Shown: positions 40,289 to 45,991 of the stretch, one piece after another
Numbering within the stretch: position 1 is the stretch's first letter
Layout: every line of letters starts with the position of its first letter
Source: Corallococcus soli
GTDB taxonomy: Bacteria; Myxococcota; Myxococcia; Myxococcales; Myxococcaceae
Reading direction: 5' to 3'
NCBI RefSeq assembly: GCF_014930455.1
Contig: NZ_JAAIYO010000016.1
Span: 1-64,000 of the forward strand
Length of the DNA stretch: 64,000 bases
Notes under the pieces: generated by a model
The model's database searches: none
The model's input: only the letters and a program-made list of their open reading frames with translations
Told to the model about the DNA's origin: nothing
Translations under genes and position numbers: made by a program

Positions 40289-42352
40289 TCAGATGTTGAT
40301 GCGGGAGCTGACCGTCCGGACATCCAGGCCCAGCGCTGAGAACTCCGCAGCGTGGGCCCGGAGCAGCTCCAGCAACCGGGGATGCACGTCCTCCTCCTCG
40401 TTGGAGAGGATGAACCCGTAGTTCGTCTTGGACAGCATCCAGGAGATCCACAGCATCTCCGTCGCCTCATCCGGCTCCGGCGCCGCGTCCAGGTCCTCCT
40501 CCGTCGGCAGCGAGCCGTCCTTGCCCCACCGGAGGCCCAGGCACGAATACAGCACCTCGCCCGCGTCCTCCCACTGGAGATTGTTCGCCCAGGCGTGCCG
40601 GAAGGTCGCGAAGAAGACGACGTACCGGCACAGGTTCTTGAGCCCCTCCAGCTCGCCGGCCTGGGGCGCATCCGTCCGGGTCACCGCGCTGACCGCCTTC
40701 GGAGGTGGCTCCGCGGCCTTCACATCCAGGTCCATGCGCTCGGAGCGCACGAACCAGGGGGCTTCCTTCCCCGGCACCTTCGCTCGCAGATAGCGACACA
40801 CGAAGGCCGGCGCTGAATGCGCGACGAGGTCATCCGAGAACCTGCGCACCTCGTGCCACTGCGCCGCGATGTCCGCCCCATGCTCCGCGAAGAACGCGTC
40901 GATGTGCTCCCCGAGCAACCGCCAGAAGAGCTGTCCCGCTCGCGCATACCGGTGTCCTTCACAGACAGGCGCCGCGGGCGCGAACCCCTTCCAGTCGTAG
41001 CTGCCCATCAGGTGCTCCAGCCGCTTGTTGATTCCCTGCTCCGTCAGGGCACTGGCGCGCGTGATGTATCCGGTCGACCCCACCAGGAACCCGTTGGCCG
41101 AGTGGTTGATCAACACCACCTCCCGCAGGTGGGGCATGAGCAACCAGCGCAAGGGATTGCGTCGCAGGTTCCGGTGCGCGGCAATGGCATACTGTTCCAC
41201 GTTGAAGTGGCACTGCCCCAGGTGGTTCCCCAGCTCCACGTCCAGCGTCGCGCTCACCCGCGCCATCCGCTTGGCAGCTTCCCAATCCCTGCCATCCGCG
41301 GGCGTGAAGGTCCGCCGTGTCACGGGCGAACCGGGCGCCGTCGCTCCGGGCTCCCGCAGGCCCAGGATGATGCGCACGGGCAGCAGCTTGCCCTCCACCA
41401 ATCGCAGCCGCACGTCCACGTCCGGCAGGCAGTGGATGCCGTCCTGTTCGTACGCATTCCACGGCAGGTAGAGCCGGAACGCCTGGGCATCGCCGGGCAC
41501 TTCCGGGTCCCGGTCCAGGATGCTGGAGAACATGCCGTTGAGCAGGCGTTCGCCAAAATACGCGTCGCTCCGGGTGGAGCCCGGTGACTCCCGCTCCATT
41601 CGGGCGGTGGTCGACTCCGGATAGTCCGCCTGGATCTTCTCCAGGCTCGGCGCCTGGCCCAGTTGCCCCTGGAGCAGGTGCTGACGCTTGATGAGCTCAA
41701 TGGGCGCGACGGCCTTCAGCATCGCCAGGGAGCGTCCCGGCGCATACGCGGTGGGCGGGGTGCCTTCCTCCACGACGAGCAACCGCGCCAGGGGAGACGC
41801 CGGGTCGTATTCCCAATAGGGCACCCGCACCGTGCCGAAGTCATACCGGAGCCCGCCGTGGTCGTCCGGGCCTTGCTCCGAACCAATGCGCCGCCAGGTC
41901 TCCACCACCCGCCCGTCCTTGCGGAACGTGTGCTGGGGTTCAAAGAAGCGCAGCTCCAGGTCCGGCAGGTCGCCTTCACCCGCGTCCGCCGGGTCGTAGC
42001 GGATCGCGAAGGCCCCTTCCGCATCCGTGAAGCCCTCGCCCAGGAAGTCGTCCGGCGTGCCGAAGTCCCGGTCCCACAGCTCCACCTTGAGGTGGTGCAG
42101 CGGGATGGGCCCCTGGGGGCCGTCCTGCTCGAAGACGAGGCGCCCCGTGGCCACGGCGGGCAGGGTGGCCGGGTCCCTCCGCGCACGAGGGGCACGCACC
42201 TTCGCGGCCAGATTCCGGCTGACGGCCAGCCGCTGCTCCAGATCAAGCCCCGCGTACCACCGGGCCAGCTCGTCCGGCTCCAGCAGGTCGGGCTCGGTGC
42301 CGCGGGACTTGAGCCCCAGGGACGACATCAGGCGGCGCCAGGTGGTGCTCAT
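40289..42352 (-). CDS. Lipoxygenase-family protein with transthyretin-like N-terminus
   Basis: A 687-residue protein. Residues about 65-155 look like a transthyretin/carboxypeptidase-regulatory beta-sandwich (GRLVFEQDGPQGPIPLHHLKVELWDRD). The rest is lipoxygenase-like: NHLGQCHFNVEQY (H377, H382), HRNLRRNPLRWLLMPHLREVVLIN, FRHAWAN (His near 586, Asn near 590) and a C-terminal isoleucine (SSRINI), the usual last iron ligand. Aligned on RNL...LIN with the neighbouring lipoxygenase, the first His of the iron-binding block is missing (Val instead). It could be an iron-poor or altered dioxygenase. It is divergent from the second lipoxygenase gene across 163 bases. Confidence 0.78.
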   Translation of the reverse strand: MSTTWRRLMSSLGLKSRGTEPDLLEPDELARWYAGLDLEQRLAVSRNLAAKVRAPRARRDPATLPAVATGRLVFEQDGPQGPIPLHHLKVELWDRDFGTPDDFLGEGFTDAEGAFAIRYDPADAGEGDLPDLELRFFEPQHTFRKDGRVVETWRRIGSEQGPDDHGGLRYDFGTVRVPYWEYDPASPLARLLVVEEGTPPTAYAPGRSLAMLKAVAPIELIKRQHLLQGQLGQAPSLEKIQADYPESTTARMERESPGSTRSDAYFGERLLNGMFSSILDRDPEVPGDAQAFRLYLPWNAYEQDGIHCLPDVDVRLRLVEGKLLPVRIILGLREPGATAPGSPVTRRTFTPADGRDWEAAKRMARVSATLDVELGNHLGQCHFNVEQYAIAAHRNLRRNPLRWLLMPHLREVVLINHSANGFLVGSTGYITRASALTEQGINKRLEHLMGSYDWKGFAPAAPVCEGHRYARAGQLFWRLLGEHIDAFFAEHGADIAAQWHEVRRFSDDLVAHSAPAFVCRYLRAKVPGKEAPWFVRSERMDLDVKAAEPPPKAVSAVTRTDAPQAGELEGLKNLCRYVVFFATFRHAWANNLQWEDAGEVLYSCLGLRWGKDGSLPTEEDLDAAPEPDEATEMLWISWMLSKTNYGFILSNEEEDVHPRLLELLRAHAAEFSALGLDVRTVSSRINI

Positions 42353-42515
42353 CGGCCCGGTGCCTCAATCCCAGACATCACCCGGGAGGGCATCGCGAAA
42401 TCAGGTTCAGGACAGGAGTGGTTCGAGGCGGGTGTCATCGCACCCGGAAGCTACCATGCCTTGCCGGGTCCGCTTTCGGCGTCGTACCTTCCTGCGCCCG
42501 TGATAGGGGGATTCC
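42353..42515. promoter_or_regulatory. Shared divergent promoter region of two lipoxygenase genes
   Basis: These 163 bases separate the start codons of the two lipoxygenase genes and are less GC-rich than their flanks (for example GAAATCAGGTTCAGG and GTGATAGGGGGATTCC). Both promoters must lie here, so the two genes may be co-regulated. No convincing operator repeat was found by eye. Confidence 0.45.
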
Positions 42516-44546
42516 ATGACTGTCGAATACACGCTAACGATTCGCACGAACTCGCGGCTCGGCGCGGGGACCAACGCCAACATCTCCGTCGTCCTGGTTG
42601 GCACTCAGGGTGAAAGCGACTCACGCCTGCTGGACAAGCGCTTCCACAACGACTTCGAGGCCGGCGCGGAGGACTCCTACACGGTCCAGTCCCACGACCT
42701 GGGAGAGCTGCTGCTGCTCCGATTCTCGAACACCGGGAATGGGGTCGCGAGCGACTGGCTGCTCGACAATGTGCGTGTCACGGCCGGTGAGAAGCACTGG
42801 TTCTTCCCCCACCACCGCTGGGTGCTGGGCAAGGCGACCGCCGAGGTGCTGGAGGGCACGGCGCGGCTGCCGCAGCAGGTGAAGAACGAGCGCGCGGCGT
42901 CTGCGCGCATGGAGCAGCTCAAGGCCCGGCACCAGATGTACGGCTGGCGCGCGCCCGAGGCGACCGCCGGGCTGCCCGGCGCGCTCGACATCAGCGAGGC
43001 GAAGCCGCTCCCGAAGGACGAGCTCTACCGGGGACTCGTGGACGGCAGCTACGAGATCGTCATCGCGAAGACGCTGGCGGCCATCAAGCTGAACATGCCC
43101 GTGCTGAGCAAGGCCTGGAACGGCCTCGTGGACATCTTCGACTTCTTCAAGGGCATCGAGCTGCCCCAGCTCGCCAACCGCTGGAAGGACGACTACGAGT
43201 TCGCCCGGCAGGCCGTCCAGGGCATCACCCCCGTCCACATCCAGTCCATCACGGCGCTGCCCCCGGGCCTCGCGCTCACGGATGGCGAGCTGCACGGCCT
43301 GCTGTCGCCGGGCACCTCGCTGGCCCAGGCCCTGGCGGCGAAGCGCATCTTCCTGCTCGACTTCGAGATCCTGGACGACGTGCCGATGTTCAAGAAGGTC
43401 AACAAGGAGGGCGTCGAGGAGCGGCGCTGGTCGCCCGCGTCCCGTTGCCTCCTGTACCTGGACGACACCCGGCAGCTTCGGCCCATCGCCATCCAGCTCG
43501 GGAAGGATCCGGAGCAGCATCCGGTGTTCACGCCCAATGACAGTCAATACGACTGGCTGGCCGCGAAGATCTACGTCCGGTGCAGCGAGGGCAACACACA
43601 CCAGATGGTGGGGCACGCGCTGCGGACGCACTTCATCGCGGAGCCGTTCGTCATGGCGACGATGCGCAACCTCCCGGACCCGCACCCCGTCTACAAGCTG
43701 CTGCGCCGGCACTTCCGCTACACGCTCGCCATCAACGACGGCGCCCGCAGGGGCCTGCTCGCGGAGGGCGGCGTGTTCGATGACATCATCGCCACCGGCG
43801 GTCCCGACAAGGGCCACGTCTTCCTGGGCAAGAAGGGCTACCAGCGCTGGAAGCTCACGGACAACCGGCCGCGCCAGGATATCGAGCGCCGTGGGGTGCT
43901 CGACCCGGCGGTGCTGCCGCACTACCCCTACCGGGACGACGCGCTGCCCCTGTGGGATGCGTTCGAGGAGTACGTCGGCGGGGTGCTCGGGCACTTCTAC
44001 AGGTCCGACGCGGACCTGGCGAACGACGCCGAGATGCAGCGCTGGTGGACCGACCTCACCACCCACGGCATGTCCGTGGAGAAGCTGCCCTGCACGGAGC
44101 TAAAGCGCGTCTCCGACCTGGTGGACATCCTCACCACCATCCTCTTCACGGTCAGCGTCCAGCACGCGGCGGTGAACTACCTCCAGTACGAACACTACGC
44201 CTTCGTGCCCAACGCGCCGCTGTGCATGCGCAAGGCGCCTCCGACGAAGAAGGGCCTCATCGGCGCGGATGACATCGTGGACATGATCCCCTCCAAGTCC
44301 CAGATGCTCTGGCAGGTCTCCATCGGCCGCGCGCTGTCCAGCTTCGGTGACGACGAGGAATACCTGCTCCACGAGGGCGGCTGGTACGAGGAGTACTTCC
44401 AGGAGCCGGAGGTGCTCGCCATCCGCGACCGCTTCCATGCCCGGCTGCGCGCCCAGCGCGACGCTGTGAAGGCACGCAATGAGAAGTGCGAAGTGCCCTA
44501 CACGGTCCTGCAGCCCGACCGGATCCCCTGCGGCATCACCGTCTGA
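42516..44546 (+). CDS. Lipoxygenase with N-terminal PLAT-like domain
   Basis: A 676-residue lipoxygenase that should insert O2 into polyunsaturated fatty acids to make hydroperoxides. The first ~110 residues form a PLAT/LH2-like beta-sandwich (EYTLTIRTNSRLGAGTNANI; WFFPHHRW). The catalytic region has WLAAKIYVRCSEGNTHQMVGH (H362, H367), HPVYKLLRRHFRYTLAIN, and SVQHAAVNYLQYEHY (H550, N554). The terminal PDRIPCGITV aligns with the usual PDRIPNSxxI end, but the last residue is Val, not Ile. Myxococcus lipoxygenases acting on arachidonate are known. It is followed by a P450 gene after 14 bases, so the two are co-transcribed. Confidence 0.93.
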   Translation: MTVEYTLTIRTNSRLGAGTNANISVVLVGTQGESDSRLLDKRFHNDFEAGAEDSYTVQSHDLGELLLLRFSNTGNGVASDWLLDNVRVTAGEKHWFFPHHRWVLGKATAEVLEGTARLPQQVKNERAASARMEQLKARHQMYGWRAPEATAGLPGALDISEAKPLPKDELYRGLVDGSYEIVIAKTLAAIKLNMPVLSKAWNGLVDIFDFFKGIELPQLANRWKDDYEFARQAVQGITPVHIQSITALPPGLALTDGELHGLLSPGTSLAQALAAKRIFLLDFEILDDVPMFKKVNKEGVEERRWSPASRCLLYLDDTRQLRPIAIQLGKDPEQHPVFTPNDSQYDWLAAKIYVRCSEGNTHQMVGHALRTHFIAEPFVMATMRNLPDPHPVYKLLRRHFRYTLAINDGARRGLLAEGGVFDDIIATGGPDKGHVFLGKKGYQRWKLTDNRPRQDIERRGVLDPAVLPHYPYRDDALPLWDAFEEYVGGVLGHFYRSDADLANDAEMQRWWTDLTTHGMSVEKLPCTELKRVSDLVDILTTILFTVSVQHAAVNYLQYEHYAFVPNAPLCMRKAPPTKKGLIGADDIVDMIPSKSQMLWQVSIGRALSSFGDDEEYLLHEGGWYEEYFQEPEVLAIRDRFHARLRAQRDAVKARNEKCEVPYTVLQPDRIPCGITV

Positions 44547-44560
44547 GACGCCTGGAGAAG

Positions 44561-45991
44561 ATGCCCATGCCCAACCCGCTTTCTCGTGGCCTGTTCAACC
44601 TGTTCTTCGGCTCCCGGCGCAAGCCCTTCGCCTCCCTCCCCGGGCCGCAGCCCGGCGTGCTCGGCACCGCGGGCGACTTCCTGGGGCACCAGCCCTGGGA
44701 TGTCTGCGCGCGGTATGGCCGTGAGTACGGTGGTGTCACGCTCATCTGGATGGGGCCCAGCCCCGGCGTGGTGCTCAACGACCCCGCCGTCATCGCGGAG
44801 GTACTGGAGTCCCCCCGCCGGATGGAGTTCGAGAAGGGAAACATCAGCGAGCAGGTCCGGCCCACGGTGACGGACGATACGGTCTTCATCGCGAAGCTGA
44901 GCGGGGACTGGGCCCAGAAGCGCAAGCTGGAGCCCATGGAGCAGCCGTGGTCTCCGCGGTGGCTGGCCGCCCAGGTGGAGCCGATGCACCGGTCCATCGT
45001 CGAGTCCGTGGAGGCCCTGCTGAAGGAGCCCGCCATCGACTACACCACCGCGATGCGGAAGCTGACCTTCGACGCCTTCGCGGTCGCGGCGGTGGGGGAG
45101 AAGCTCCCGACCTCCGTGTTCGACGACTTCATGCTGCTGGGGAAGGGCGCGGACGCGCGCATCCAGTCGAAGCTGCCGTTGAAGTTCGTCTCACCGCCCA
45201 AGGGCTTCGACGAGGCGAAGGCGCGCTTCTACGGCCAGTTCGCGGACCGGGTGCGCGCCGCGCGCAAGAACCCCAACCCCCACGGCGTGGACGTGATGTC
45301 GTGGACGCTGCGCGAGACGCCAGGGATTGATGACCAGGTGTTGGCGCACCTGCTGGGGGGGGTCTTCTACGGTGGCGCCTTCTCCTCCAGCGTCACGCTG
45401 GTCGGCGCGTTCCACCAGCTCCAGAAGTACCCCCAGGCGGAGGCGCGGCTCGCGGAGGAGGCCGCGTCGCTGGGGGACGGGCCGCTGACGTTCGAGAAGC
45501 TGGGCGGGGCGCCCTGGGCGGAGGCCTGCGCCTTCGAATCCCTGCGCCTCCTGCCGGCGGTCCGGGTGTTCACCCGCACGCCGTCGAAGGACGCGCAGCT
45601 CGCCGGCGTCACGCTGCCGGCGGGGGCGATGATCATGATCTCCAACCAGCACCTGCACCGGGACCCGGCCCACTGGACGGAGCCGGAGACCTACAACCCG
45701 GCGCGCTGGCTGGACGGCGGGGCGGCCCGCGACCCGCTGGGCAGCGGTCACTTCTTCCCGTTCGGACGGGGGCCGCGCGCGTGCGTGGGTGGCGACTTCG
45801 CGATGGTGTTCCTGCGCACGGCGCTCGCGACCATCGCCGCCCGGGCGAAGGCGCACGTCGATTCGACGGAGCCCTTCGAAGAGGGGTTCTTCTTCGGCGT
45901 CGTCCTGCCCAAGGGCGTCACCGGGAAGCTCGTCGCGCGCCAGCCGCAAGCTGCGCAGGCGTCCTCGGAAGTCCGCGCCAGCATGGCCTGA
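44561..45991 (+). CDS. Cytochrome P450 with atypical I-helix, in the lipoxygenase operon
   Basis: A 476-residue P450. The heme loop FPFGRGPRACVGGDFA holds the thiolate Cys near 408, and the ESLR (ExxR) motif and a PERF-like NPARWLD segment are present. The I-helix reads LLGGVFYGGAFSSSVTLVG: the usual acid-alcohol pair (A/G-G-x-D/E-T) is replaced by GGAFSS. P450s that rearrange preformed hydroperoxides, such as CYP74 and prostacyclin or thromboxane synthases, also lack this pair because they need no O2 activation. Next to a lipoxygenase, a hydroperoxide isomerase, lyase or peroxygenase role is a reasonable inference. The start ATG 44561 lies 14 bases after the lipoxygenase stop; an upstream GTG is less likely. 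Confidence 0.88.
   Translation: MPMPNPLSRGLFNLFFGSRRKPFASLPGPQPGVLGTAGDFLGHQPWDVCARYGREYGGVTLIWMGPSPGVVLNDPAVIAEVLESPRRMEFEKGNISEQVRPTVTDDTVFIAKLSGDWAQKRKLEPMEQPWSPRWLAAQVEPMHRSIVESVEALLKEPAIDYTTAMRKLTFDAFAVAAVGEKLPTSVFDDFMLLGKGADARIQSKLPLKFVSPPKGFDEAKARFYGQFADRVRAARKNPNPHGVDVMSWTLRETPGIDDQVLAHLLGGVFYGGAFSSSVTLVGAFHQLQKYPQAEARLAEEAASLGDGPLTFEKLGGAPWAEACAFESLRLLPAVRVFTRTPSKDAQLAGVTLPAGAMIMISNQHLHRDPAHWTEPETYNPARWLDGGAARDPLGSGHFFPFGRGPRACVGGDFAMVFLRTALATIAARAKAHVDSTEPFEEGFFFGVVLPKGVTGKLVARQPQAAQASSEVRASMA

Follow-up and report, generated by a model that had tools for sequence, protein, structure and literature searches.

The lipoxygenase-P450 locus of Corallococcus soli

Two lipoxygenase (LOX) genes and a cytochrome P450 gene lie side by side in a stretch of 64,000 nucleotides (nt) of Corallococcus soli DNA (contig NZ_JAAIYO010000016.1, positions 1 to 64,000), which is called the window here. 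The genome to which it belongs (G000) amounts to 9.44 Mb in 68 contigs. LOX1 (42516-44546, plus strand) encodes a protein of 676 amino acids with a PLAT domain, a lipoxygenase domain, and a C-terminal Val, and it is followed on the same strand by the P450 gene (44561-45991; 476 amino acids), which is presumed to share the LOX1 transcript. LOX2 (40289-42352, minus strand; 687 amino acids), a lipoxygenase with a transthyretin-like N-terminal region, is divergent from LOX1 across an intergenic region of 163 nt (42353-42515) that is predicted to have room for both LOX promoters. The distance from the LOX1 stop to the P450 ATG at 44561 is 14 nt; it would be 20 nt if the start were the ATG at 44567, the position at which many aligned P450 orthologs begin. 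These open reading frames (ORFs) and their spacing agree with a preliminary description of the DNA, which had read them as a self-contained route from a polyunsaturated fatty acid to a rearranged oxylipin that might signal in predation or development.

LOX1 has Pfam matches above the cut-off to Lipoxygenase (PF00305; E 9e-79) and to PLAT (E 1.7e-20), and because of the latter domain it is perhaps membrane-associated; among proteins of solved structure, it is closest to arachidonate 5-lipoxygenase and to an allene oxide synthase-lipoxygenase protein. LOX2 has been called atypical because its Pfam Lipoxygenase match (E 1.5e-8, above the cut-off) covers only the core. Its N-terminal match to TTR-52 falls below the Pfam cut-off, and its residues 66-687 are homologous to PDB entry 5ek8, "Lipoxygenase" (E 2e-142). 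Following the general LOX pattern, we take H367, H372, H550, N554, and the C-terminal V676 as candidate iron ligands of LOX1, and H377, H382, H586, N590 or N591, and the C-terminal I687 as those of LOX2. In the alignments, these candidate His and Asn columns are identical in 46/46 LOX1 and 39/39 LOX2 copies, and both proteins belong among the lipoxygenases. The C-terminal residue of LOX1 is Val in 42 copies and Ile in two, with two copies outside the coverage, and that of LOX2 is Ile in all 39. One LOX2 copy (G016, contig C12, 3132-5183, minus strand) has a single in-frame TAG inside the match.

Conservation of the gene order

The arrangement was surveyed in 96 genomes of the family. Close LOX1 sequences (64-100% identity) are present in 46 genomes as 47 copies, and LOX2 is present in 44 genomes. 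A search for the P450 recovered 49 copies in 47 genomes; 47 of these, in 45 genomes, are orthologs (60-100% identity), and the P450s of G032 and G033 are of a distant type with 34% identity. Among named genomes, in a scan that gave 19 loci and may omit the record of the window itself, the closest P450 matches are those of C. praedator and C. terminator, at 95%.

The P450 is the next gene after LOX1, on the same strand, in 46 of the 47 LOX1 copies, and because the same order recurs to this extent, the arrangement is not due to chance. The gaps between the two genes, which were taken from alignment ends and may be off by a few nt, are 8-22 nt in 42 copies, 45-54 nt in three, and 137 nt by alignment in one truncated copy. 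LOX2 is divergent at 80-310 nt in 39 of the 47 copies. Among the eight exceptions, LOX2 lies elsewhere in the genome in four (G004, G007, G014, and G015), lies behind the P450 in G031, and is missing from G005 and G034; the eighth is a second, partial pair in G025, truncated or frame-shifted, which is included in the counts. When 51 loci were compared, LOX1, the P450, and LOX2 were the only families to recur in at least five of six genus groups, and the remaining flanking genes turn over between genera. This count is approximate, since the ORF picker misses genes (the desaturase discussed below was seen in 11 loci there, compared with 23 genomes otherwise), and because the 51 loci include single genomes under two names, the genus group is the fair unit. 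Thus, the LOX-LOX-P450 order is conserved in myxobacterial relatives.

The P450 and the loss of its I-helix acid

The P450 matches PF00067 (E 1e-43) and has both the ExxR motif and the heme-thiolate loop FxxGxRxC, with E326, R329, and Cys408 invariant in 34/34 aligned P450s. Its heme loop (residues 398-412; 45752-45796, plus strand), FFPFGRGPRACVGGD, is canonical, and the thiolate Cys408 is encoded at 45782-45784. The I-helix segment GGAFSSS (residues 271-277; 45371-45391, plus strand) departs from the acid-alcohol pair of canonical monooxygenases, [AG]Gx[DE]T[TS]. When it is aligned to the GGSDT of ferruginol synthase, Phe274 (45380-45382) stands in place of the acid and Ser275 in place of the threonine. 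Residues 271-275 read GGVFS in 31 orthologs, GGAFS in 14, and SGVFS and GGTFS in one each, so that the acid position is Phe in 47/47 orthologs, with Ser at the alcohol position. As a control, P450s were collected from 58 Myxococcota genomes, including that of the window; 99 ORFs were obtained, from which two LOX-linked ones were set apart to leave 97. The control omits eight matches (G111:C303 and C42; G112:C1116, C438, C282, C413, and C142; G036:C9:15215) as well as LOX-linked copies already sampled. Asp or Glu occupies the acid position in 84 of these 97.

In P450s that activate O2, the I-helix acid serves proton delivery. Its loss is as expected of a P450 that is fed with a ready-made hydroperoxide. 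Furthermore, the corresponding residue is Thr in the P450s of G032 and G033 and Trp in that of L144, which belongs to another family; consequently, a whole sub-clade of P450s is without the acid. An AlphaFold model of the window P450 has a mean predicted local distance difference test score of 79.9, but values below 50 at residues 400-406 in the heme loop make it too unreliable in that region to support claims about the active site.

Relationship to CYP74 and other P450s

The preliminary description had also called for a comparison of the P450 with CYP74, and a kinship of the two was rejected on the motifs of the I-helix and the heme loop. CYP74 enzymes work without O2 and without redox partners, which is the stated reason why their catalytic domains are different (PMC10813956). 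Like the members of the CYP74 family and clan, which include the plant allene oxide, epoxyalcohol, and divinyl ether synthases and hydroperoxide lyase as well as animal and bacterial CYP74-clan enzymes (PMC10813956), the window P450 has a LOX partner, and its I-helix is likewise without the oxygen-activating acid. Unlike them, it has a canonical heme loop, no FNxxGGxKI I-helix, and a place nested among ordinary bacterial P450s. The I-helix of Arabidopsis allene oxide synthase reads FNTWGGMKILF, compared with VFYGGAFSSSV in the window P450, which has no Asn three residues before GG, a position that is variable among the orthologs. In addition, the CYP74-type heme loop (NKQCAGKD, without FxxGxRxC) is not seen in the window P450, where the loop is FPFGRGPRACVG. 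No CYP74 chain was among the best 50 matches of each fold search, which is no evidence regarding kinship.

A FastTree phylogeny of 130 sequences and 438 columns, rooted at the midpoint and leaving out one gappy control and two LOX-linked controls, places L144 together with the LOX-linked P450s (support 1.0), and the Phe-bearing clade comprises 32 tips (support 1.0). In this tree, which contains no full-length CYP74, the LOX-linked clade is nested in a group of 72 tips with canonical bacterial P450s (support 0.94). The preliminary description had held that its reading would fail if the P450 fell among ordinary monooxygenases and the gene order were not conserved; the P450 does fall among ordinary P450s, and the order is conserved.

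P450s that did not originate from CYP74 can also isomerize peroxides without O2, as do CYP5A1 (thromboxane synthase) and CYP8A1 (prostacyclin synthase). The former belongs to the CYP3 clan, and CYP3A chains rank first or nearly first among the PDB matches of the window P450. Both synthases act on a cyclooxygenase endoperoxide, whereas a LOX hydroperoxide is proposed here.

Desaturase and hydrolase partners

A fatty acid desaturase gene (PF00487, E 8e-26) lies directly downstream of 23 of the 47 P450 orthologs, for example at L072:9346-10188 and L134:9434-10276 (both plus strand). It is found in 20 of 21 cases in the Myxococcus group (g19), where the lone exception, G061, has its P450 at a contig end, in 2/2 in Citreicoccus (g5), and in 1/1 in group g8, and it is found in 0/17 in Corallococcus (g1), 0/5 in the Archangium-group (g3), and 0/1 in group g6. 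Seven P450-desaturase junctions were inspected, and in each of them the stop codon of the P450 and the ATG of the desaturase overlap in a 4-nt ATGA. Within g19, a desaturase of at least 80% identity is present in 21/21 genomes with the module and 0/6 without it (Fisher p 3e-6, a value that overstates independence because the g19 genomes are related).

A lipase-like hydrolase gene has been found behind LOX2 in two genera. In G031 (L086:4012-10843), LOX1, the P450, LOX2, and an alpha/beta hydrolase follow one another on one strand. In G042 (L103:4961-12594), an 88% identical hydrolase lies behind LOX2 on the LOX2 strand, with LOX1, the P450, and the desaturase opposite, so that all five genes stand together. 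As partners of the P450 and the LOXs, these lipid genes favor a fatty acid substrate.

A C20 omega-3 synthase was considered as a source of substrate and rejected, as none of the 29 PfaA matches in the window genome is over the curated cut-off; all 14 desaturase matches in that genome are over theirs. Protein P0004 matched no desaturase among solved structures, where one match, at E 0.05, was to a cyclase that looks unrelated, nor did it match any NCBIfam family.

Counterparts in Myxococcus

The lipoxygenases themselves are not new, and activity has been measured for their counterparts in Myxococcus. Expression of the M. xanthus genes showed that MXAN_1745 acts on arachidonate as a 12-LOX and MXAN_1744 as an 11-LOX, and the organism produces hepoxilins and trioxilins (PMC5760719); in M. 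fulvus, MF-LOX1 is a 12S-LOX by assay (PMC6612559). The published coordinates of MF-LOX1 (NZ_FOIB01000010, complement 205294-207324) fit LOX1 of genome G057 (C10:205297-207324 without the stop), where a P450 lies 16 nt behind LOX1 and LOX2 lies 214 nt in front. LOX1 of the window is an ortholog of MF-LOX1 and, we infer, of MXAN_1744, and the pairing of the two LOX types points to LOX2 as the counterpart of MXAN_1745. M. xanthus AM003 (L134) has the triad and the desaturase, with identities to the window proteins of 81% for LOX2, 75% for LOX1, and 72% for the P450. The window, M. xanthus, and M. fulvus thus share the same two LOX types, and G057 has the same P450 behind LOX1. However, the LOX1 counterparts differ in reported regiospecificity (11-LOX in M. 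xanthus, 12S-LOX in M. fulvus), and therefore neither can be assigned to LOX1 of the window.

In the published Myxococcus studies, the assays concern the LOXs and the epoxide hydrolase MXAN_1644 (PMC5760719, PMC6612559). The eight candidate genes of the M. xanthus study do not include the gene that adjoins the LOX pair, and the two P450 candidates of that study, MXAN_0683 and MXAN_2304, which were inactive as thromboxane synthases, are different genes from the LOX-linked P450 (PMC5760719). If the numbering follows the order, the neighbors of the LOX pair would be MXAN_1743 and MXAN_1742, tags of which no mention was found in the open-access literature. What is new here is the overlooked, unusual P450 in a conserved operon, together with a newly noticed desaturase partner.

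LOXs and acid-less P450s in other contexts

A third type of LOX, about 32-37% identical to LOX1, was listed 22 times, and 21 of these were read with their flanks, that of G023 being left out. The ortholog profile, which misses distant P450s, found no further P450 in these flanks. A wider P450 profile found one near 3/21, namely the acid-less pair of G032 and G033 and an ordinary P450 in G034; LOXs of the third type are thus mostly without a P450 neighbor. In G032 (L090) and G033 (L089:5184-13980), roughly 5 kb separate the 34% identical acid-less P450 from a convergent LOX of the third type, and in G033 this interval contains a phosphoesterase-like gene, so named by eye, and the genes for two unknown proteins. 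The third LOX of the window genome itself lies on a different contig (G000:C17:155472-156836; L111); it is about 32% identical to LOX1 and ends in Ile, and a P450 profile scan found no P450 in its flanks. Of eight LOX-bearing plasmid records, four were inspected (Acaryochloris, Nostoc, Rhodococcus, Pantoea), and none of these four lists a P450 within 7 kb, in gene tables that are incomplete.

At L144:354-6738 (G122), an acid-less P450 with the I-helix GGVWS lies behind a P450 that is fused to two cyclic-nucleotide-binding domains. A P450 fused to tandem cyclic-nucleotide-binding domains is also seen at L221:587-2788 (minus strand; G109), and L222:1-3897 (minus strand; G187:C241) encodes a giant one-frame fusion of an acyl-AMP ligase piece, a P450, a cytochrome b5 domain, and an FAD oxidoreductase domain.

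A model for oxylipin synthesis

We propose that in myxobacteria of the Myxococcaceae type these genes constitute a conserved module for oxylipin synthesis, which would lead from a fatty acid through a hydroperoxide to a P450-rearranged oxylipin and would have evolved apart from CYP74; we give this reading a probability of roughly 0.5. In this model, LOX1 and LOX2 would form hydroperoxides by oxygenating a polyunsaturated fatty acid, an activity measured in the Myxococcus counterparts. The P450 would then use the LOX hydroperoxide as both substrate and oxidant, cleaving the O-O bond with neither O2 nor a redox partner, and would rearrange it to an epoxyalcohol, an allene oxide, an aldehyde, or a similar product. 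Such use of hydroperoxide is predicted because the operon is conserved and the I-helix acid is lost, and the P450 probably consumes LOX hydroperoxides. In Myxococcus and its relatives, the polyunsaturated substrate probably comes from the desaturase, whose gene overlaps the end of the P450 gene, and in the two genera that have it, the lipase-like hydrolase may release the substrate. Because the module is conserved and is joined in relatives by a desaturase or a lipase-like hydrolase, a fatty acid-to-oxylipin route is the natural reading. The self-contained route of the preliminary description is therefore upheld in part, by the conservation, the lipid-gene partners, and the loss of the acid, and is not upheld as regards a kinship with CYP74; for a signal in predation or development, these data speak neither in favor nor against.

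A number of findings weigh against this model. E. coli carrying either M. xanthus LOX alone yields hepoxilins (PMC5760719), so that the P450 is unnecessary for these products, and no assay of the LOX-linked P450 was found in the open-access literature. The acid is also absent from 13 of the 97 control P450s (3 His, 2 Gly, 2 Phe, 2 gaps, and one each of Val, Ile, Trp, and Ala), where the Phe cases are L221 and L222, whose alignment at that position is uncertain. Ser275 is retained at the alcohol position, and oxygen activation, weakened on paper, would therefore still be possible. The nearest solved structures, by sequence and by fold, are those of ferruginol synthase, CYP3A, CYP97, and BM3, all monooxygenases. 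The last two observations, together with the canonical heme loop and the nesting of the clade among canonical P450s, fit a conventional hydroxylase of LOX products that depends on O2 and a reductase, with its redox partners encoded elsewhere; a CYP4F-like end step provides an analogy. We consider such a hydroxylase unlikely, given that Phe replaces the proton-relay acid in every ortholog while most controls keep Asp or Glu. That the recurring neighbors are only LOX1, LOX2, and lipid genes argues against it weakly, as redox partners are often encoded elsewhere.

The desaturase, in turn, is not strictly tied to the module. The window locus is without it, with a 75% identical relative elsewhere in the genome (G000:C8:306654-307490); Corallococcus genomes keep a relative elsewhere, and one is also present where the module is lacking, at 80-81% in G006, G035, and G037 and at 74-76% in G002 and G032-G033. 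The partner genes also bear on a scavenging role, in which the P450 would reduce LOX hydroperoxides, or peroxygenate with them, and so protect the cell without making a specific signaling product. The operon and I-helix evidence would suit any hydroperoxide-consuming P450, this one included; however, desaturase and hydrolase partners suggest that the substrate is deliberately made or released, and we regard scavenging as quite improbable.

Finally, the association itself has exceptions. LOX1 of G034 (C1:8282004-8284028; L091) is the sole LOX1 copy of the 47 with no P450 behind it, and LOX2 is missing there as well; the ordinary P450 of the same genome (L152:2438-4786, minus strand; I-helix AGHETT) lies about 3 kb from a third-type LOX. 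A second P450 copy in G007 has no LOX1 neighbor, and the acid-less P450 of L144 is followed by tyrosine/homogentisate breakdown-like genes (named by eye) and is not near a LOX. The G034 LOX1, the G007 copy, and the non-lipid neighborhood of L144 could indicate that the P450 has a substrate of an unrelated kind and is simply cotranscribed with LOX1. Yet adjacency is kept in 46/47 copies across 60-95% P450 identity while other neighbors turn over between genera, and the extra partners are lipid genes, which leaves this the least probable of the alternatives.

Implications

If the oxylipin model is correct, the P450 would have come to hydroperoxide chemistry from among the ordinary bacterial P450s and not from CYP74. 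A fuller version, which we advance only tentatively, is that of an independent invention, in which a clade of hydroperoxide-isomerase P450s arose from ordinary bacterial P450s by loss of the acid, acts on the LOX1 product free of O2 and redox partners, and makes up, with the desaturase and in some species also the hydrolase, a complete hormone-like oxylipin pathway that evolved in bacteria. The gene set seems to be a bacterial equivalent of the lipid-hormone pathways of plants and animals. A 2024 review describes the data on what lipoxygenases do for bacteria in nature as scarce and cites a claimed statistical link between bacterial LOXs and multicellularity (PMC11011848). The LOX-P450-desaturase operon provides a testable downstream step and a possible source of substrate in M. 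xanthus, a genetically tractable social predator. Should the P450 be a hydroperoxide isomerase, bacterial LOX-P450 oxylipin cascades would have arisen from a P450 stock other than CYP74.

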